This document shows, piece after piece, positions 33,618-62,401 of a stretch of DNA of 64,000 nucleotides. Under the pieces are notes generated by a model. That model was not told the origin of the DNA. It did not search any database and was given only the letters and a program-made list of their open reading frames with translations. Made by a program: the position numbers and the translations under genes. The stretch is from Haladaptatus paucihalophilus DX253 (GTDB lineage Archaea; Halobacteriota; Halobacteria; Halobacteriales; Haladaptataceae), in assembly GCF_000376445.1 (NCBI RefSeq), contig NZ_AQXI01000001.1, positions 900,962 through 964,961 on the forward strand. Reading direction: 5' to 3'. Every line of letters begins with the position of its first letter. The stretch's first letter is position 1.

Positions 33618-33648
33618 TCGACGCCTTTCGAGCGGTTCAGGGACGCCA

Positions 33649-33657
33649 TAACAAAGT
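33649..33657 (+). promoter_or_regulatory. ATAACAAAG element 3, before the tRNA-like gene
   Basis: Exact copy whose centre is 31 bp before the first base of the tRNA-like acceptor stem. Because a tRNA has no coding leader, this spacing is the best clue that the element acts as a promoter at about -31. Confidence 0.7.
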
Positions 33658-33683
33658 TACTCTCGCTCCTCGTAAGGAGTGTG

Positions 33684-33766
33684 GAAGGGTGGCTCAGTGG
33701 TAGAGCACCACCGACTCGTCGGTGGGAGCTTGATAGGCTTCGCGTGGTTCGAATCCCGCCCCTTCC
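33684..33766 (+). tRNA. tRNA-like gene, unusual or degenerate
   Basis: Perfect 7-bp acceptor stem (GGAAGGG with CCCTTCC), a normal D-arm (GCTC-AGTGGTA-GAGC) and the T-loop sequence GGTTCGAATCC. The anticodon region CCACCGACTCGTCGGTGG is a palindrome that gives an 8- or 6-base loop instead of 7, so the anticodon is unclear (CGU, threonine, is one reading). A variable arm AGCTT-gat-AGGCT makes the molecule 83 nt, of class II length. The T-stem GCGTGG against CCCGC needs a bulged T. It is either a real but odd tRNA or a pseudogene. Confidence 0.45.
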
Positions 33767-33813
33767 GTTTTTGCGAGGAACGGACGTGACGAGAAAAATC
33801 GAACGCGGGGATT
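33746..33813 (+). repeat. 68-bp direct repeat, copy 1 (overlaps tRNA-like 3' end)
   Basis: Begins GGTTCGAATCCCGCC at the T-loop of the tRNA-like gene and runs through its 3' end into flanking sequence ending CGCGGGGATT. It is identical to 33881-33948 at an offset of 135 bp. Duplication of a tRNA 3' end is the usual mark of site-specific integration or its scar. Confidence 0.85.
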
Positions 33814-33880
33814 CGAATCCTGCCAGCGGCACGCCCGCGCACGTCGAACGTCAGTGAGACGAGCAGGAACCGTTGGCTTC

Positions 33881-33948
33881 GGTTCGAATCCCGCCCCTTC
33901 CGTTTTTGCGAGGAACGGACGTGACGAGAAAAATCGAACGCGGGGATT
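33881..33948 (+). repeat. 68-bp direct repeat, copy 2
   Basis: Exact second copy of 33746-33813, including CCCTTCC and the following flank. The 67 bp between copies hold no gene. After this copy the sequence turns A/T-rich. Confidence 0.85.
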
Positions 33949-34027
33949 TGAAGTAAACGAATCACAGCCTCAACACCGACCTCGACGTGATGGGTACACT
34001 GTGAAATACTGTTTTCGTCTCAAATTC

Positions 34028-40006: not shown

Positions 40007-41080
40007 TTACCGGTGGGTCACCGCGACCGTCCGTTCGATGCGTTCCTTCGGAACCACGGCGGTCGTTGCGACGTCCACGATGACGTCGGTGAGGTTCACC
40101 TTGTCCGAGAGGTACTCGTCCCGGCGTTTCCGGAGGCGCTCTTTCGCCGAATCGTTCGCGAGAATGATGAGCGCCTGTGAGAGAACGTCGTCGAAATCAC
40201 GGAGGTTGTGGATGAGTCCCTCGCGTTCGAGCTCGACGAAGTTTCCCATATCCGACTCGCCGACGAAGGAGTTCGACCGAATCGCGGGCGTGCCGAGCAG
40301 GGCCGCCTCCGTCACCATCGTCTGGGTGTCGGCGACCAGCAGGGACGCCTCCGCCAGCGCGTCGTGGAGCAGTGCGGGATGGAGGTCGAACTCGTGCGAT
40401 TCGCCGGGGGCAGGGTTACCCCCCTCGTCGGAGACGAACACCGTGACGTGCTCCGAGAGGGCCGAAACGAGCTCCCGCCGTTTTTCGGGCGAGAATCCGG
40501 AGTGGCCGACGTCGTGGTGGGACCCGAAGGCGTTGAACCGCACGATGGCGTACTCTTCGTCCGGGCCGACCCCGAGGCGGTCCCGAATCGTCGGGTCGGG
40601 GTCGTACACGTCTGGGTGGAGGTAGGCGAGTTCCTTGAACCCGCGGAACTCGTAGTGGTTCGCACCGAGGTCCTTGCCGAAGGTGTGCGGCGTGAGGAAC
40701 GTGTCCACGAACGGCCGGGCGGCGATGTGGTCGAACGTCGTCGGTTCCGAGTCGGCGACGACGACGACCGGCGTCCGCGACATCGCACCGGCGTGGGCGG
40801 CGTAGGACCCGACGCCGAAGATGAGGTCGGGGTCGTATCGACGGGTCCGCCGGAATATCTGGACGTAGTGCTGTGGCAGTTCGCGGAACAGCGAGTACTT
40901 CGTCGTCTCGCACTTGCCGTATATTTCGTGCGGGAGGTCGTGGTACTCCAGCAGGGCGCGGGTACAGCCGTAATCACGCCCGAGGACGAGCACGTCGTGA
41001 CCTTGCTCTTGCAAGTCCTCTATCGCGTGCCGATAGAGGTGGACGTGCGCGGGCGTGTTGGTGAAGAACAGGTATCTCAT
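40007..41080 (-). CDS. DUF354-family protein, second copy
   Basis: 357 residues, clear paralogue of the gene at 37894: YLFFTNTPAHVHLYRHAIEDL at the start, FGVGSYAAHAGAMSRTPVVVV in the middle, and LLVADTQTMVTEAALLGTPAIRSNSFVG as the second-domain loop (quoted in part). Both copies share 'ELAYLHP' and 'DKV/I ... VA' ends. It is coupled to the FemAB-like gene upstream (ATGA overlap). The pair DUF354 plus neighbour occurs twice in the island, suggesting duplicated glycan steps. Confidence 0.85.
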   Translation of the reverse strand: MRYLFFTNTPAHVHLYRHAIEDLQEQGHDVLVLGRDYGCTRALLEYHDLPHEIYGKCETTKYSLFRELPQHYVQIFRRTRRYDPDLIFGVGSYAAHAGAMSRTPVVVVADSEPTTFDHIAARPFVDTFLTPHTFGKDLGANHYEFRGFKELAYLHPDVYDPDPTIRDRLGVGPDEEYAIVRFNAFGSHHDVGHSGFSPEKRRELVSALSEHVTVFVSDEGGNPAPGESHEFDLHPALLHDALAEASLLVADTQTMVTEAALLGTPAIRSNSFVGESDMGNFVELEREGLIHNLRDFDDVLSQALIILANDSAKERLRKRRDEYLSDKVNLTDVIVDVATTAVVPKERIERTVAVTHR

Positions 41081-42150
41081 CCTCGGACGAACTGGTATGC
41101 CCGTTTGGCGGCGTCCATGGTCGTGCCGCTCGATTCGACGAGGTAGTAGGGAACGAGGTCGGCACCGAACTTCGCCTTGTACCGACAGAGCCGCTCCGTG
41201 TTCGCGCCCATCAGGTCGTAGGTCGTCACAGACTCGACGGGCGGGTCGTCCACGATATCCTGAATGATGCGCCAGTGGACGAGACTGTTCACGCTGGTGC
41301 CCTCATACACCGAGCGGGCACCCCCTTGCCAGAAGTACGCGGCGTCGTTGGAGTAGAGGGCGGTGATGCCGGTCAGATAGTTCCCGTCGTCGTCGCGGGC
41401 GACGTAGGTTTGGGCGGCGTCACCCAGCCCTTCCCAGAGGTCGCGGACGTAGTTCCACGACAGACCGAGGGTTTCGTCCTGTTCGTCGTACCGCTCGACG
41501 GTGTGTTCGAACACGTCGCGCGCGCCGTCGGTACCCTCGCGGGTGACGGTCACGTCGAGGTCCTCGGCGTCGCGGATTTCCCGCCGGAGACTCTTGCTGA
41601 ACGATTTCTTCACGGCGTCGGCCGTGGTCGATTCCAAGTCCAATTCGTACGTGAAATAGGGTTCGACGCTCAGGTCGCCCCACGAGTAGGGTCGGGGGTC
41701 GCCGTAGTCGGTGCCACAGATCATGCGAAACAGGGTCAGCCCGGACTCCATCTGTTCGCCCACGCGCTGTGCCATGGGTGAATCGAAACCGACTCGCGCT
41801 AGCCGCCCGGTGTAGTCGGTTCGAATCCGGTCGAGCACCGTCTCGGTGAACTCGCGGTTGACTTTCTCCTGTTTCCGTCGCTTCGGACTCGTGGGCATCA
41901 GTATCGGTCCCAGCCGCGGAATCGCCATGCCCGGCGGCGGCGACATCGCGGCGGTTCCGAGCGGCCCGTTCCGAACGACGACCGGGAGCAGGGCGATAGC
42001 CTGCTGTCCCTTGAATCCCCCGTACAGGTGGAGTTCCCCCGGCGCGTGCCGCTCGATGGCGGTCAGCGCGGCCGGTCGGTGAAACACCTCGAACCCGTCG
42101 CTGGGGAGTGCATCGTCCCATTCTGTAATATCTAAACGTTCGACTCTCAT
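41077..42150 (-). CDS. FemAB/CelD-like GNAT-fold transferase
   Basis: 357 residues. Early FEVFHRPAALTAIERHAPGELHLYGGFKGQQAIALLPVV and a second GNAT-like half (FEHTVERYDEQDETLGLSW, then YLTGITALYSNDAAYFWQGG and SLVHWRIIQDIVDDPPVESVTTYDLMGANTERLC), quoted in parts. This is the FemAB / CelD-BcsL 'acetyltransf_6' architecture. Relatives transfer amino acids from aminoacyl-tRNA or acyl groups onto envelope glycans. A paralogue lies at 54854 (shared YDLVGANERRLCGYKAKF-type ending). The ATG is 39 bp after the element centre. Confidence 0.85.
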   Translation of the reverse strand: MRVERLDITEWDDALPSDGFEVFHRPAALTAIERHAPGELHLYGGFKGQQAIALLPVVVRNGPLGTAAMSPPPGMAIPRLGPILMPTSPKRRKQEKVNREFTETVLDRIRTDYTGRLARVGFDSPMAQRVGEQMESGLTLFRMICGTDYGDPRPYSWGDLSVEPYFTYELDLESTTADAVKKSFSKSLRREIRDAEDLDVTVTREGTDGARDVFEHTVERYDEQDETLGLSWNYVRDLWEGLGDAAQTYVARDDDGNYLTGITALYSNDAAYFWQGGARSVYEGTSVNSLVHWRIIQDIVDDPPVESVTTYDLMGANTERLCRYKAKFGADLVPYYLVESSGTTMDAAKRAYQFVRG

Positions 42151-53243: not shown

Positions 53244-54857
53244 ATGGACTGTCAGATGCAGACCCTTCTCATCGGCATCGACGCGGGGTGCCGGTCCGTC
53301 CTCGAACCCCTGTTCGAGGAGGACGCGCTGCCGCACCTCGCATCGATTTTCGACGAGGGGTCATCCGGGCCACTGGAATCACAACTTCCGCCGTGGACGC
53401 CGAGCGCGTGGCCGTCGCTGTACACCGGAGTCAACCCCGGCAAACACGGCGTGTTCGGCTTCCTCCACTTCGACGGCTACGACTGGGACGTCATAAACGC
53501 CAGTCGCGTCCGCGAGTACACGCTTTGGGAACTGTTGGACCAACACGGACTGTCGAGCGTCGTCGTCAACGCACCCGTCACGCACCCGCCGCGCGAAATC
53601 GACGGCGCGATACTGCCGGGATACACGGCACCCGAGAACCCGACGTGTCACCCGGAGGGACTCCTGGACGACGTTCGGGACGAAATCGGCGGCTATCGCG
53701 TGTATCCCCCGCGAAACCTTCCCGACGACGAGTCGGTCGAATGGTATCGCCGCCTCACGCGCATGCGCGGTGACGCATTTCGATACCTCACGGACCGGTT
53801 CGACCCCGACTTCGGCTTCGTTCAGTTCCAGAGCACCGACACGCTGTTTCACGAACACCCCGGCGACGACGAAATCGTCCGCGCCGTCTACGAGGCGGTG
53901 GACGAGCAGGTCGGGAAGATTCTCGACGCCTGTGACCCCGAAACGGTCGTCGTCGCCAGCGACCACGGTATCGGCGAGTACAGCGGCTACGAATTCCGGG
54001 TCAACGACTTCCTGCGCGAGGAGGGCTACGTCGAAACGGCCCGCGGCGGCGAAGGCATGCCGTCGTGGTCCACCATCGCAGGCAACCAACTACAGCAGGG
54101 TGAAGAGAGTTCCGCGCGCGAACAGGGTGTCGCCGAACGAGGGCTCGCCCTCGCCGCGAAAGTCGGCATCACGAGCCAGCGAATCGGTGCCGTCCTCGAA
54201 CGCGCCGGGTTGGACGCGTTCGTCGCGGAGCGCGTTCCCGAGGACTTCATCCGGGCGGCGACCGAACAGGTCGATTTCCCCAACTCCGTCGCCTACATGC
54301 GCGACCGAATCGAGTGCGGCGTTCGACTCAACGTCGAAGGCCGCGACCCGAACGGCGTCGTCTCGCCGGACCAGTACGAGTCGATTCGCGCGGAGATAAT
54401 CGAAAAGCTCCGCGGCGTCAGGACCCCCGACGGCGACCCCGTGTTCGAGACGGTCGCCCCGCGCGAGGAGTTCTTCACCGGTCCGTACAGCGAGGACGCC
54501 GTGGACATCGCGTGCGTCCCCAACGAGTACGACCAGTTCCTCTCGGCCCAACTGCGCGGCCAGCAGTTCGGAAAGCCCCGCGAACCGTGGAACCACAAGC
54601 GAAACGGCATCTTCGCCGCGGCGGGCGAGGGCGTCGACCCCGACGCGAACCTCGCCGGGTCCCACCTCTTCGACGTGGCCCCGACGATTCTGGCGACCTT
54701 CGACATCCCGGCGAGCGACCGGATGGACGGTCGCGTCCTCCCCGTCGTCGAGTCGGCGGGCGAGCAGAGCTACCCCGCGTTCGACGCGGGCGAAACGGTC
54801 GAAACCGACGACGAGCGCGTGGAAACGCGACTCGCCGACCTCGGATATCTCGAATGA
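53244..54857 (+). CDS. alkaline-phosphatase-superfamily phosphodiesterase, second copy
   Basis: 537 residues, paralogue of 31087: TLLIGIDAGCRSVLEPLFEE with the first metal aspartate, PPWTPSAWPSLYTGVNPGKHGVFGF with the nucleophile region, TVVVASDHGIGEYSGYEFRVNDFL with later metal ligands. Both copies end 'VETRLADLGYLE' or 'VEDRLRGLGYME'. No signal peptide. The start at 53244 (MDCQMQ) fits the promoter element; ATG 53256 is possible. Its TGA overlaps the FemAB-like ATG, so the two are coupled. Confidence 0.88.
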   Translation: MDCQMQTLLIGIDAGCRSVLEPLFEEDALPHLASIFDEGSSGPLESQLPPWTPSAWPSLYTGVNPGKHGVFGFLHFDGYDWDVINASRVREYTLWELLDQHGLSSVVVNAPVTHPPREIDGAILPGYTAPENPTCHPEGLLDDVRDEIGGYRVYPPRNLPDDESVEWYRRLTRMRGDAFRYLTDRFDPDFGFVQFQSTDTLFHEHPGDDEIVRAVYEAVDEQVGKILDACDPETVVVASDHGIGEYSGYEFRVNDFLREEGYVETARGGEGMPSWSTIAGNQLQQGEESSAREQGVAERGLALAAKVGITSQRIGAVLERAGLDAFVAERVPEDFIRAATEQVDFPNSVAYMRDRIECGVRLNVEGRDPNGVVSPDQYESIRAEIIEKLRGVRTPDGDPVFETVAPREEFFTGPYSEDAVDIACVPNEYDQFLSAQLRGQQFGKPREPWNHKRNGIFAAAGEGVDPDANLAGSHLFDVAPTILATFDIPASDRMDGRVLPVVESAGEQSYPAFDAGETVETDDERVETRLADLGYLE

Positions 54858-55870
54858 GTATTACCATCGAAAAGAACGGCATCAGGGTAGAACGGACGAA
54901 CGACGTGGACCGCTGGAACGACCTCGTGGAGCGATCACCACAGGGGGCACTCTTCCATCGATTGGAGGCCCTCGAAGTGCAGGCCGACCACACGGGCGCG
55001 ACCTTCCATCCGCTCGTGGGCTACAAGGGACAGGAACCGGTCGGCCTGTTTCCCGCCTTCACCATCTCGAAGGGCGGCGTGACAACGGCGTTTTCGCCGC
55101 CGCCGAACCTCTGGCTCCCGCACCTCGGTCCCGTCCTACTGAACATGGGGAAGCTGAAGCGACGAAAGGCCGAGCGACGACACCGCCGGTTCATCGACGG
55201 CTGTCTCGATTGGCTCGACCGCGAGTACGCGCCGAAGTACGTCCACGTTCGGACGGGCGGGACCTACGACGACGTTCGCCCCTTCGAGTGGAACGAGTTC
55301 GAAATCCAGCCGCGACACACCTACGAGGTGGACCTCACGCCCGGCGAAGAGGACGTACTGTCCAGTTTCAGCGGCGACGCCCGCAGCAACATCAGGACCG
55401 ACGACGACCGGTACGAAATCCACGTCGGCGGGCCGGAAGCGATTCGTAAAATCATCGGACAGGTGAAAGCCCGCCACGACGAGCAGGACGAACCGTACCG
55501 CCTCTCCCCGCAGTTCGTCGTGGACCTCTACCGATTTCTGCCCGACGGCGCGGTCCGACCCTACGTCTGTGACGTGGACGGCGAGTTCGCGGGAGGAATG
55601 ATAGCGCTGGCGGACGACGAACGGGTGTACCGGTGGCAGGGCGGGGCGAAACACGACCTCGACGTGCCCATCAACGACCTCGTGGACTGGGCCATCATGC
55701 GCGACGCGATGGACGAGGGAATCCCGCGCTACGACCTCGTGGGCGCGAACGAGCGCCGACTCTGTGGCTACAAGGCGAAGTTCAACCCGGAACTCGTCCG
55801 CTATCACAGTCTGGAGCGCGGGACGCGGATGATGAACCTGCTGACGGACGTGTACAAGCGGTTCAGATAG
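54854..55870 (+). CDS. FemAB/CelD-like GNAT-fold transferase, second copy
   Basis: 338 residues from ATG 54854 (ATGA with the upstream gene). Paralogue of 41077: DRWNDLVERSPQGALFHRLEAL, then FHPLVGYKGQEPVGLFPAF, RHDEQDEPYRLSPQFV, AGGMIALADDERVYRWQGGA and PRYDLVGANERRLCGYKAKFNPELVRY. Same two-GNAT-lobe architecture. Likely transfers an amino-acyl or acyl group to a glycan or lipid-linked sugar; donor unproven. Its tight pairing with the phosphodiesterase suggests successive action on one intermediate. Confidence 0.86.
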   Translation: MSITIEKNGIRVERTNDVDRWNDLVERSPQGALFHRLEALEVQADHTGATFHPLVGYKGQEPVGLFPAFTISKGGVTTAFSPPPNLWLPHLGPVLLNMGKLKRRKAERRHRRFIDGCLDWLDREYAPKYVHVRTGGTYDDVRPFEWNEFEIQPRHTYEVDLTPGEEDVLSSFSGDARSNIRTDDDRYEIHVGGPEAIRKIIGQVKARHDEQDEPYRLSPQFVVDLYRFLPDGAVRPYVCDVDGEFAGGMIALADDERVYRWQGGAKHDLDVPINDLVDWAIMRDAMDEGIPRYDLVGANERRLCGYKAKFNPELVRYHSLERGTRMMNLLTDVYKRFR

Positions 55871-58923: not shown

Positions 58924-60759
58924 TTAGTACGACCGCTCTTTCGGCTCGTACGTCTTGTTCTCCCCTTCGAGGATGGTCGGCTTGTACCAGAGTTGCGGCG
59001 TGCCGTCCTCCCACGAGAGGAGCGTGTGCTTCAGCCACACGTCGTCACGGCGCTCCTGGTTCTCCTGTCGCCAGTGGGCACCGCGGAACTCGTCGCGGGC
59101 CAGCGCACCGAGCGTGATGGCCTCCGCGAGGTCGATGAGGTTCTGCATCTCGATGGTGTGGATGAGGTCGGTGTTGAACGTGCGCGACGGGTCGTTGACG
59201 TACACGTCCTGATACTCCTCGCGGACTTCGCGGATGTCGCGGAGCGCCTGCTTCAGACCGTCCTCGTTTCGGAAGACGTTGACGTTCGCCGTCATCGACT
59301 TCTGGAGCTTGGAACGGAGTTCGGCCTGCTGGATGCCGTCGTCCTTTTCGAGGAGGGATTCGACGCGGTTGCGTTCTGCTTCCAGCGTGGCTTCGACGGT
59401 CTGGGTCGGGTCGGCGAACGTCGCGCCGCCGTCGGCGACCGCGCTGTCGTCGTCCGACGCGACCGCACCTGGTTCGACGGGCGTGTCGACCTCGCCCATC
59501 TCGGCGTCGTCGGTCTTGCCGGTGGAGATTTCGGCCTCGCCGAGGTCCTTGCCAGCGGCGTGGCGGCCCGCGCGGGCACCGAAGACGATGAGTTCGGGCA
59601 GGGCGTTGCCGCCGAGGCGGTTCGACCCGTGGACGGACACGCAGGCACACTCGCCCGCGGCGTACAGTCCCGAGATGCAGGTCTCGCCGTTCTCGTCGGT
59701 TTCGATGCCGCCCATCGCGTAGTGCTGGCCGGGCTTGACGGGCATCGGTTCTTCGAGCGCGTTGACGCCCTCGAAGTCCTCCGCGAGGTGGAGGATGTTT
59801 TCGAGACGGTCCATGATGCGCTCCTCGCCGAGGTGGCGCATGTCGAGGTGGACGTACTCGTCGTTGATTCCCCGTCCGTTGTTCACTTCGGTCAGTTCGG
59901 CGCGGGCAACCACGTCACGGGACGCGAGTTCGCCCTCGTTGTTCGCGTAGCCGTGTTCGAACATGAACCGCTCGCCCTCGCTGTTGTAGAGGATACCACC
60001 CTCACCGCGCACACCCTCGGAGATGAGAACCCCGGTCGAGGGGAGCGTCGTCGGGTGGAACTGGATGAACTCCATGTCCTCCAACGGGACGCCCGCACGG
60101 TACGCCATCGCCGCACCGTCGCCGGTGTTGGCAACCGCGTTCGTCGTGTGGTCGAAGACCTGTCCGAGACCGCCGGTGGTCAGGATGACGCCATCTCGAG
60201 CGACGAAGCCCTCGACGTTGCCCGTCTGGATGTCGTAGCCGATGACGCCGTGACAGTCGCGTTCCTCGGGGTCGTCTTCGTTCGTGACGGCGAGTTGGCT
60301 CACGTACCACTCGTCGTACACCTGAATGCCGCGTTTGACGACCTGCTCGTACATCGTGTGGAGCAGGTGGTGACCCGTCTCGGCACCCGCGTAGGTCGTT
60401 CGGGCGAACGAGAGTCCACCGAACGGGCGCTGGGAGACGCGACCGTCGTCCTCGCGGGAGAACGCCATCCCCCAGTGTTCGAGTTGGATGGTCTCTTTCG
60501 GGCTGTCCTGACAGAGCGTCTCGATTGCCGGGGCGTCGCCGAGGTAGTCCGACCCCTTCATCGTGTCGTAGGCGTGGAGTTCCCAGTCGTCGCCCTCTCT
60601 CAGTGCCGCGTTGATACCGCCTTCCGCCGCGCCGGTGTGACTTCGCACGGGGTGAAGCTTCGTGACGAGGGCGACATCTGCGCCCTCCTCGTGGGCCGCG
60701 ATGGCCGCACGAAGCCCCGCACCGCCAGCACCGACGACGATTACGTCGTGTTCGTACAT
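58924..60759 (-). CDS. sdhA: succinate dehydrogenase flavoprotein subunit
   Basis: 611 residues. FAD-binding GAGGAGLRAAIAAHEEG, covalent-FAD histidine H41 in RSHTGAAEGGINAAL, the active-site arginine region HGSNRLGGNALPEL, and HPTTLPSTG for substrate binding. An acidic insert of about 50 residues (TGKTDDAEMGEVDTPVEPGAV, in part) before the helical domain is typical of halophiles. It oxidises succinate to fumarate and passes electrons to SdhB. Last gene of sdhCDBA, 16 bp after sdhB. Confidence 0.97.
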   Translation of the reverse strand: MYEHDVIVVGAGGAGLRAAIAAHEEGADVALVTKLHPVRSHTGAAEGGINAALREGDDWELHAYDTMKGSDYLGDAPAIETLCQDSPKETIQLEHWGMAFSREDDGRVSQRPFGGLSFARTTYAGAETGHHLLHTMYEQVVKRGIQVYDEWYVSQLAVTNEDDPEERDCHGVIGYDIQTGNVEGFVARDGVILTTGGLGQVFDHTTNAVANTGDGAAMAYRAGVPLEDMEFIQFHPTTLPSTGVLISEGVRGEGGILYNSEGERFMFEHGYANNEGELASRDVVARAELTEVNNGRGINDEYVHLDMRHLGEERIMDRLENILHLAEDFEGVNALEEPMPVKPGQHYAMGGIETDENGETCISGLYAAGECACVSVHGSNRLGGNALPELIVFGARAGRHAAGKDLGEAEISTGKTDDAEMGEVDTPVEPGAVASDDDSAVADGGATFADPTQTVEATLEAERNRVESLLEKDDGIQQAELRSKLQKSMTANVNVFRNEDGLKQALRDIREVREEYQDVYVNDPSRTFNTDLIHTIEMQNLIDLAEAITLGALARDEFRGAHWRQENQERRDDVWLKHTLLSWEDGTPQLWYKPTILEGENKTYEPKERSY

Positions 60760-60775
60760 TGTGTCTGAATTAGCC

Positions 60776-61642
60776 TTACCAGAACTTGAGGTTGTTCTTC
60801 ACCGCTTCTCGTTTGAGCTCCTGGATGTGCTCGGTCAGCGGGATGTCTTTCGGACAGACGTTCGTACAGGAGAACTGGGTCTGACAGCGCCAGACGCCGT
60901 GTTCCTGGTCGAGGATTTCGAAACGGTGTTCCTTCATGTCCTCGCCTTCGCGTTTGTCCATGGCGAACCGGAACGCCTTGTTCAGCGCCGCCGGGCCGAG
61001 ATACTGGTTGTCGCCCGCCGCGATGTTGCACGAGGACATACACGCACCGCACCAGATACAGCGCGTGGACATCTTGATTTTCTCGCGGTTTTCGCGGGTT
61101 TGGCGCTGTTCTTCCAGTTCGTCGCTCGGCTCGTCGTTGGTCTGGAAGTAGGGTTCGACCGAGTGCATCTGGTCGTAGAAGTGCTCCATGTCGACAACGA
61201 GGTCCTTGACGACCTCGGCGTGCGGGAGGGGTTCGACGCGAATCGGCCCGTCCAAGTCCGAAATTTGCGTCTTGCACCCGAGTCGCTGCGTGCCGTTGAT
61301 GAACAGCGCGTCGCTGCCACAGATGGCCTGTCGGCAGGAGTGACGGAACGTGAGCGTCGTGTCGAACCGATCACGTGCGTACATCAGCGCGTCGAGGACG
61401 GTCATCCCCTTCTCGAAGGGGACGTAGAAGTCGTCGAAGCGGGGGTCCATCTTGCCCTCGACTTCGGGGTCGTAGCGGAAGACCTTGAGGTGAACCGTCT
61501 CCTCGTCCGCCTCGGTCGGCTCTTGCACCTCTGACGACCGCCCTTGACGGGCCTTCTTTTCCGCCCGTCGGCGGTCGCCGGGGGTTTCGGTGCGCTCGGT
61601 TTCGGTCTCGCTCTCTGATTCTTCGGTTAGTTGCGTGCTCAT
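60776..61642 (-). CDS. sdhB: succinate dehydrogenase iron-sulfur subunit
   Basis: 288 residues. [2Fe-2S] ligands C103, C108, D111 and C123 (an aspartate replaces the third cysteine, as in E. coli SdhB), then CIWCGACMSSC and CQTQFSCTNVCP for the [4Fe-4S] and [3Fe-4S] centres. The N-terminal 50 residues are a charged halophilic extension. It links SdhA to the membrane anchors. The start follows the sdhD stop directly. Confidence 0.97.
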   Translation of the reverse strand: MSTQLTEESESETETERTETPGDRRRAEKKARQGRSSEVQEPTEADEETVHLKVFRYDPEVEGKMDPRFDDFYVPFEKGMTVLDALMYARDRFDTTLTFRHSCRQAICGSDALFINGTQRLGCKTQISDLDGPIRVEPLPHAEVVKDLVVDMEHFYDQMHSVEPYFQTNDEPSDELEEQRQTRENREKIKMSTRCIWCGACMSSCNIAAGDNQYLGPAALNKAFRFAMDKREGEDMKEHRFEILDQEHGVWRCQTQFSCTNVCPKDIPLTEHIQELKREAVKNNLKFW

Positions 61643-62008
61643 TTACATCAACCCGTTCATGACGAGTGCGACGTAGATTCCCTGCGCGGAAAGCAGGACG
61701 CCAGCCACGACGAGAACCCATTTGACCGCGGTCTTTCGACTCCCCGTGAGACCCTGATTTATCAGGGCAGCGTAGACGCCGTTGACGCCGTGGAACGCCG
61801 CCGTGATGAGGAACAGCGTCATCGTGAGGAAGTACCCGATTTGGGACATCCGGGCCTGTGTGCCCGCGAACGTCACTTCGGGCGCGTGGTGGACGAAGTG
61901 GAGCATGAAGAAGTGGAACGCCAGCACCACGACGAGGAACGCCGCCGTGACGCGCTGGAGGAACCACGACATGCTTCCGCTCTGGAAGGAGGAGTAGCGC
62001 TCCGCCAT
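61643..62008 (-). CDS. sdhD: succinate dehydrogenase membrane anchor (SdhD)
   Basis: 121 residues with three membrane helices (VTAAFLVVVLAFHFFMLHFV, GYFLTMTLFLITAAFHGVNGVYA, WVLVVAGVLLSAQGIYVALV). Histidines in FHFFMLHFVHH and AFHGVNG are candidates for haem or quinone contact. It pairs with SdhC to form the cytochrome b membrane part. The gene abuts sdhC and sdhB with no gap, so the order sdhC-D-B-A is fully coupled. Confidence 0.93.
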   Translation of the reverse strand: MAERYSSFQSGSMSWFLQRVTAAFLVVVLAFHFFMLHFVHHAPEVTFAGTQARMSQIGYFLTMTLFLITAAFHGVNGVYAALINQGLTGSRKTAVKWVLVVAGVLLSAQGIYVALVMNGLM

Positions 62009-62401
62009 TTAGAACGCCCCCTGCATGAACGTCGGAACGCTCGCCAACACGATGACTGCCGTCACGATGAGCGAGGCGTAGAAGCTCTTGTCCTGCGATT
62101 CCAATCCGACACCCAAATCGACGAAGAGGAGTCTGACGCCGTTGAGAATGTGGAAAACGGCCACGGCGAGTAGGCCCACTTCACCGATTCGGACGATGGT
62201 CAGTTCTTCGAGACCTTGAATCGTTGCGGTGTAGGTACCCGGATTCGCCGTGGCGGTACTCAACACGGCGATGTGCGTGAACAGGTAGCCGATGAGTACC
62301 CACCCAGTAAATTTGTGGAAAATCCAGGCCCACATCCCGGCCGAAAACTCGCGCCATCGGCCGAAGTCCTCGATGAGGCCCCGGTTGTACGATTGACTCA
62401 T
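62009..62401 (-). CDS. sdhC: succinate dehydrogenase cytochrome b subunit (SdhC)
   Basis: 130 residues. [31 protein letters not shown] contains the 'S-G...H-x-x-T-G' motif of SdhC with the axial histidine (quoted in two parts by position, about residues 16-46). Two further helices ([21 protein letters not shown] and [18 protein letters not shown]) follow. First gene of the operon; the 250-bp spacer upstream to 62651 shows no other gene. Confidence 0.95.

Follow-up and report, generated by a model that had tools for sequence, protein, structure and literature searches.

A conserved tRNA-like RNA of haloarchaea that very probably does not decode, and its tentative link to surface-glycan islands

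What is a gene that has the fold of a transfer RNA (tRNA) and no readable anticodon doing in a surface-glycan island? The question is raised by a stretch of 64,000 nucleotides from Haladaptatus paucihalophilus DX253 (assembly GCF_000376445.1, contig NZ_AQXI01000001.1, positions 900,962 to 964,961 of the forward strand), the whole of which we refer to as the window, and in which the only ARAGORN call is a 'tRNA-???' at 33682-33768. Our analysis indicates that this gene very probably belongs to a conserved, non-decoding tRNA-like RNA family of haloarchaea. The covariance search suggested in a preliminary description of the locus scores it as a tRNA (44.1 bits against Rfam RF00005, gathering score 29, E 4.3e-6), without an anticodon that ARAGORN can name. 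Its minimum-free-energy fold is a class-II cloverleaf (-38.9 kcal/mol, z -2.45) and confirms the structure given in that description, with a perfect acceptor stem, D-arm and T-loop, an odd anticodon loop, a variable arm and a bulged T-stem (Table 1). The Rfam score, the fold and 92 relatives agree on the 7-bp acceptor stem, the D-arm, the T-arm and the UUCRANU T-loop of a tRNA. Two features needed in translation are lacking. One is an anticodon loop of 7 nt that contains U33 and a readable anticodon; the window copy has a 4-nt CUCG loop instead. The other is the uninterrupted 5-bp T-stem required for elongation-factor binding, which is broken by one bulged base in all 92 sequences.

The gene is present in 26 of the 28 genomes searched in Haladaptatus' own family, its own genome counted. 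An exact pattern for the 3' half matches 57 named haloarchaeal contigs, from Haloferax, Halobellus, Halogranum, Halorientalis, Halorussus, Halostella, Halomarina, Halalkalicoccus and other genera, and a covariance model finds strong copies in families f1, f4, f5, f7, f8 and f15 of the order Halobacteriales. Only matches of about 49 bits or more that also had the family sequence were counted, because the haloarchaeal matches of 23-47 bits that we examined were mostly ordinary Ser, Leu, Thr, Arg and Ala tRNAs. Outside Halobacteriales the model gave only matches of up to about 48 bits, often several per genome, which by their appearance we take as ordinary class-II tRNAs; a viral origin found no support, with no match among viral contigs or phages. 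Judged from sequence, this conservation across haloarchaea excludes a chance origin of the tRNA-like fold. The literature we searched contained no description of this RNA.

Conservation is concentrated in the parts that tRNA enzymes would contact. All seven acceptor-stem pairs, G2-C71 among them, are identical in 21 diverse sequences, two of which have one T-stem pair swapped on both sides, from C-G to U-A. In 92/92 sequences the T-stem is completely paired apart from a single bulged base, U in 80 and C one position later in 12 from Natrialbaceae; as both its identity and its position can shift, it is the bulge itself that is conserved. The discriminator base N73 is a purine in 96/96 copies (G in 64, A in 32). 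The acceptor stem, the D-loop/T-loop elbow and purine 73, which are used by tRNA-processing and aminoacyl-acceptor enzymes, are thus by sequence retained. The loop of the anticodon arm is hypervariable, from 3 to 14 nt (7 nt in only 6 of 92), and since its length is free to vary it holds no anticodon that could be conserved. The Rfam score above threshold would also suit an intron-bearing tRNA that decodes normally or a tRNA pseudogene in decay, but these readings are contradicted by several observations and we give them next to no probability, although no search dedicated to BHB introns was made. Neither U33 nor the 7-nt loop is conserved in relatives, where the loops vary while the stems and the rest are preserved. 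Besides this gene the Haladaptatus genome contains 46 tRNA genes, with Ser CGA, GGA, UGA and GCU and five Leu anticodons among them, and given this ordinary set the tRNA-like RNA is dispensable for decoding. The decay in relatives that the preliminary description had named as telling against its proposal is also clearly not seen, with within-clade identity of 0.87-0.96 in the gene versus 0.61-0.71 in its flanks.

Table 1. Positions in the window of the RNA gene, its parts and the other features discussed.
Feature	Position	Strand	Remarks
ATAACAAAG promoter element at TATA position	33648..33656	+	35 nt before G1; centre 31 bp before 33683
tRNA-like RNA gene	33683..33767	+	85 nt; CCA not encoded, 3' end is G73
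Acceptor stem 5' strand GGAAGGG	33683..33689	+	7 bp with 33760-33766
D-arm GCUC-AGUGGUA-GAGC, 4-bp stem	33692..33706	+	Rfam match, fold
Hairpin in place of anticodon arm, 7 bp, loop CUCG (4 nt)	33708..33725	+	fold
Class-II variable arm, 6 bp; 3' strand ends AGGCU-U, then C48	33726..33740	+	fold
T-arm GCG-U-GG UUCGAAU CCCGC, bulged U at 33745	33742..33759	+	fold, 92 sequences
Acceptor stem 3' strand CCCUUCC and discriminator G73	33760..33767	+	N73 purine across copies
Long hairpin reusing T-arm and acceptor 3' strand	33803..33902	+	fold -47.8 kcal/mol, z -3.24
fem1, FemAB-like transferase	41077..42150	-	PF13480 and PF02388
Phosphodiesterase type I/alkaline-phosphatase-family protein	53244..54857	+	PF01663; homologues in ten compared loci
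fem2, FemAB-like transferase	54854..55870	+	PF13480 match G000:C1:956343-956717

The gene also appears to have a promoter of its own. Across the 96 copies, whose flanks are otherwise G+C-rich, an A+T-rich box occupies positions -35 to -26, with a peak of 0.9 at -29. This is the expected site of an archaeal TATA box and it holds across genomic contexts, so that transcription should begin at or near G1. In Haladaptatus this place is taken by ATAACAAAG, at the spacing of 31 bp from element centre to gene start that had been described; the additional claim that this is exactly as in the protein genes of the island holds for some of them: from the first base of the element to the ATG it is 36, 36, 39 and 43 nt in four, and 71 and 122 nt in two others. 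ATAACAA[AT] has 10 copies between 27 and 58.5 kb of the window versus 0.4 expected, and none between 1 and 27 kb. The window holds 4 of the 13 occurrences of CATAACAAAG in the whole genome of 4.3 Mb. The ATAACAA[AT] motif is strongly overrepresented in the glycan islands of several families (6 copies in locus L193, 5 in L194, 6 in L248 and 8 in L191), an enrichment that extends to islands without the tRNA-like gene, and we infer that ATAACAA is a special core-promoter element of glycan genes and not a separate operator. It was seen at glycan-island promoters at 27.6-58 kb of the window and in loci L185, L191, L193, L194, L195, L197, L198, L200 and L248. Upstream of the RNA gene, ATAACAA[AT], or in Natrialbaceae ATTACAA[AT], is found in 17/40 copies with a variable arm, 9/16 Natrialbaceae copies and 0/41 copies classed as lacking the arm, the sorting by variable arm being approximate and made with a simple sequence pattern.

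The copies occupy at least three genomic contexts. In Haloferax, Halobellus, Halogranum, Halostella, Halomarina and others, the gene follows sdhCDBA, directly 3' of sdhA; in Natrialbaceae one of its neighbours is a helicase gene and the other usually a DUF7531 gene; and in Haladaptatus, two genera of family f7, two genera of Haloarculaceae and others, it lies within a surface-glycan island. Some genomes (G049) have both an sdh-linked and an island copy. In the window itself, sdhCDBA is found on the other strand at 58924-62401, 25 kb from the RNA gene, with the glycan island between them. The many copies directly 3' of sdhA, together with downstream hairpins that repeat the T-arm and acceptor strand, raise the possibility of a processing signal (t-element), a fold that RNase P and tRNase Z would cut to separate or mature flanking transcripts. 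We consider this improbable, since the box at the TATA position lies 26-35 nt before G1 across contexts, the neighbours are inconstant and processing would not require an invariant acceptor sequence. The hairpin downstream of the Haladaptatus gene belongs to a 72-nt direct repeat (33746-33817 and 33881-33952, 99% identical), and tandem long hairpins containing the T-arm and acceptor 3' strand are found 3' of many copies (L193, L033, L043, L146 and L034); the exact 19-nt core motif has no other occurrence in the Haladaptatus genome.

tRNA genes are common integration sites, and the direct repetition of the 3' end downstream, like the presence of the gene in glycan islands, would also be expected if the gene were a landing site at whose 3' end mobile islands integrate, its own function being unrelated to glycans; that most copies lie outside glycan islands fits this too. 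This explanation, too, we hold to be quite unlikely, although no search for an integrase was made. The repeat runs 50 nt beyond the gene and makes its own hairpin, and the 21-nt 3' end has no other match in the window within 3 mismatches, so that the island is not bounded by a pair of attachment (att) sites. Moreover, the Haladaptatus copy has the island's own promoter element, and in Halorientalis sp. IM1011 a whole copy lies inside the glycan island of plasmid pHOS100, where its neighbours are an alkaline-phosphatase-family/GNAT gene pair and genes for a flippase, a second GNAT, a polysaccharide deacetylase and glycosyltransferases. In the record of this plasmid, the one annotated record that we checked, the RNA gene is unannotated.

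Does the RNA then have a role in the islands? The two FemAB-like genes on which the preliminary description had based its proposal of a tRNA dedicated to glycan or lipid-linked-sugar modification are indeed present (fem1 and fem2). The start of fem2, which overlaps the 3' end of the phosphodiesterase gene, was inferred from its homologues, which begin at residue 181 of the long open reading frame. At sequence level fem1 has weak matches to FemX (E 6e-5 to 0.01), and the best PDB matches of its AlphaFold model (pLDDT 84.9) are Sba18/Sbb17, FemX, FemA and MprF-type domains, with E 8e-13 to 5e-10, TMq 0.56-0.65 and 10-14% identity for the first three; all of these depend on aminoacyl-tRNA, and they rank ahead of acetyl-CoA enzymes. 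Among glycan-island copies, the distance from the RNA gene to a PF13480 gene is 4.4-10 kb in Haladaptatus, G049/G075, G082, G137/G109/G353 and G400, a close linkage that spans Haladaptatus, the two f7 genera and the two Haloarculaceae genera, plasmid pHOS100 included, and it is 17-23 kb in some Halorussus and in G078. By our own estimate, such proximity in 6/22 genera would arise by chance with P about 2e-4 to 6e-3, but since FemAB-type enzymes are typical of glycan islands it mainly shows the association of the RNA with these islands. Of the genomes that have the RNA, 43/49 encode PF13480 (E<1e-8), as against 11/31 of those that lack it, a comparison confounded by phylogeny. The phosphodiesterase/alkaline-phosphatase-family gene is present at every glycan-island copy compared, and its pairing with the overlapping FemAB gene (53244-55870) recurs in the islands of other families and on pHOS100.

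The best single reading of the RNA, by analogy with known systems and held tentatively, at somewhat less than even confidence, is that it donates an amino acid outside translation. It would be matured into a tRNA-like molecule by RNase P, tRNase Z and the CCA enzyme and charged by a synthetase that does not depend on the anticodon; the T-stem bulge would bar it from elongation factor 1A, and hence from the ribosome, leaving its amino acid to be given to an acceptor outside protein synthesis. For the island copies, the adjacent FemAB-like transferases would be natural acceptor enzymes, decorating an amino sugar or a lipid-linked glycan; that the RNA is such a dedicated carrier, feeding glycan or lipid-linked-sugar modification through archaeal FemAB enzymes, is a narrower proposal that we find plausible but distinctly less likely than not. 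To our knowledge, the only realistic synthetases for a tRNA without an anticodon are those for serine (SerRS), alanine (AlaRS) and leucine (LeuRS). Between the variable arm and the T-stem stand one unpaired base and position 48, the arrangement of all four tRNA-Ser in the genome but not of its tRNA-Leu, and position 73 is G in Haladaptatus and most variable-arm copies. SerRS fits the variable-arm copies because of this Ser-type linkage and G73, a combination found in Haladaptatus and in most Halorussus and Natrialbaceae copies, and it would be the best candidate for them.

A number of observations weigh against an aminoacyl donor, and more so against one serving glycans. AlaRS needs a G:U pair at 3:70, and in this RNA the D-arm is tRNA-Ala-like, yet the 3:70 pair is A:U. 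Many sdh-linked copies are without the variable arm on which SerRS chiefly relies, and A73 is frequent among them; copies of this kind match no one synthetase. No SerRS paralogue was found, each genome having one SerRS, with two weak second matches below the cut-off. The majority of copies are outside glycan islands, after sdhCDBA or beside the helicase gene, and three Halobellus-like genomes with the RNA have no PF13480 match and no MprF domain. Conversely, fem1 orthologues (47-59% identical) occur in the islands of genomes in which the search turned up no tRNA-like RNA, and such islands without a nearby tRNA-like gene are known from families f6 and f13 and genomes G165, G171, G259 and G118; ARAGORN and the covariance model revealed no hidden tRNA-like RNA near FemAB genes in 11 regions of 19-20 kb from genomes lacking the family. 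The same RNA does stand near FemAB genes in several unrelated lineages, as one would look for in relatives, while most of its copies are elsewhere. What survives of the proposed glycan-dedicated tRNA is therefore a conserved, non-decoding RNA that in some lineages lies in islands, 4.4-10 kb from FemAB genes and often with ATAACAA upstream, and a fem1 model of a suitable fold; the RNA family predates the link to glycans and extends well beyond it, FemAB proteins occur without the RNA, and the RNA occurs in genomes with no detectable FemAB.

Several of these points would be accommodated by an RNA that is not charged and acts as a regulator or decoy: mimicking a tRNA, it would bind a synthetase, RNase P or Z, the CCA enzyme or some other protein that recognises the elbow, and so adjust the activity of its target. 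The surface that is conserved belongs to the acceptor/elbow half, no one synthetase identity suits all copies (with or without a variable arm, A or G at 73), and the varied contexts are as expected of a stand-alone trans-acting RNA. An invariant purine at N73 and an intact elbow nevertheless exceed what a decoy needs, and the repeated placement in glycan islands with the island promoter element would be left unexplained; we regard a decoy as unlikely, though worth keeping in mind.

Two candidate links were rejected. A promoter element common to the Natrialbaceae copies and their FemAB islands did not emerge, the copies having ATTACAA[AT] and the islands ATAACAAAG or neither, and on sequence a shared regulon of the two is only suggestive. 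MprF as a general partner was discarded, MprF domains being present in just 2/80 genomes; the two MprF-type LPG_synthase_C matches (E about 1e-89) are both in Haladaptatus (G005:C10:200909-201772 and G007:C3:252971-253831), with none in the 78 other haloarchaeal genomes searched. Separately, a rare second anticodon-less tRNA-like gene was seen in loci L177-L181 (G270, G176, G289, G180 and G114), at about position 1500 of the locus; its acceptor reads GAAAGGG or GAACGGG, its T-stem is normal, and a tRNA-Gly(UCC) gene lies directly 3' of it in at least 3 of the 5 genomes.

Were it charged, the RNA would have its sole aminoacyl role outside protein synthesis while being retained in many haloarchaeal families, and would indicate that archaeal surface glycans carry an amino-acid modification not described so far. 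If it is not charged, it still represents a conserved archaeal RNA family concealed in the score band of tRNAs.

Among known RNAs, haloarchaeal tRNA-Ser(UGA) shares with it the class-II arm joined by one base plus position 48, as well as G1-C72, G2-C71 and G73, but this RNA differs in having no anticodon, a bulged T-stem, a tRNA-Ala-like D-arm and the invariant GGAAGGG acceptor. The tRNA-like t-element reported upstream of the Haloferax 5S rRNA (Hoelzle et al. 2012, cited in PMC7714728) is likewise a haloarchaeal tRNA-like fold recognised by tRNA-processing enzymes; it is a processing signal within a precursor, whereas the present RNA seems to be a gene that stands alone across haloarchaea with its own promoter box. 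In predicted fold, fem1 resembles Sba18/Sbb17, FemX and FemA, from which it differs by its low identity and its archaeal glycan-island setting. The likeness that bears on an aminoacyl donor is to the tRNA-Gly donors of FemXAB in Staphylococcus aureus, where the T-stem of the non-proteinogenic isoacceptors is altered in ways consistent with weak binding to EF-Tu, and G2-C71 is recognised by FemX (PMC4052509). Both cases would combine an extra-translational tRNA, an altered T-stem and acceptor enzymes of FemAB fold; the S. aureus tRNA-Gly keeps its anticodon and serves bacterial peptidoglycan, whereas the haloarchaeal RNA has lost its anticodon, carries a bulge in its T-stem and belongs to an archaeal host.
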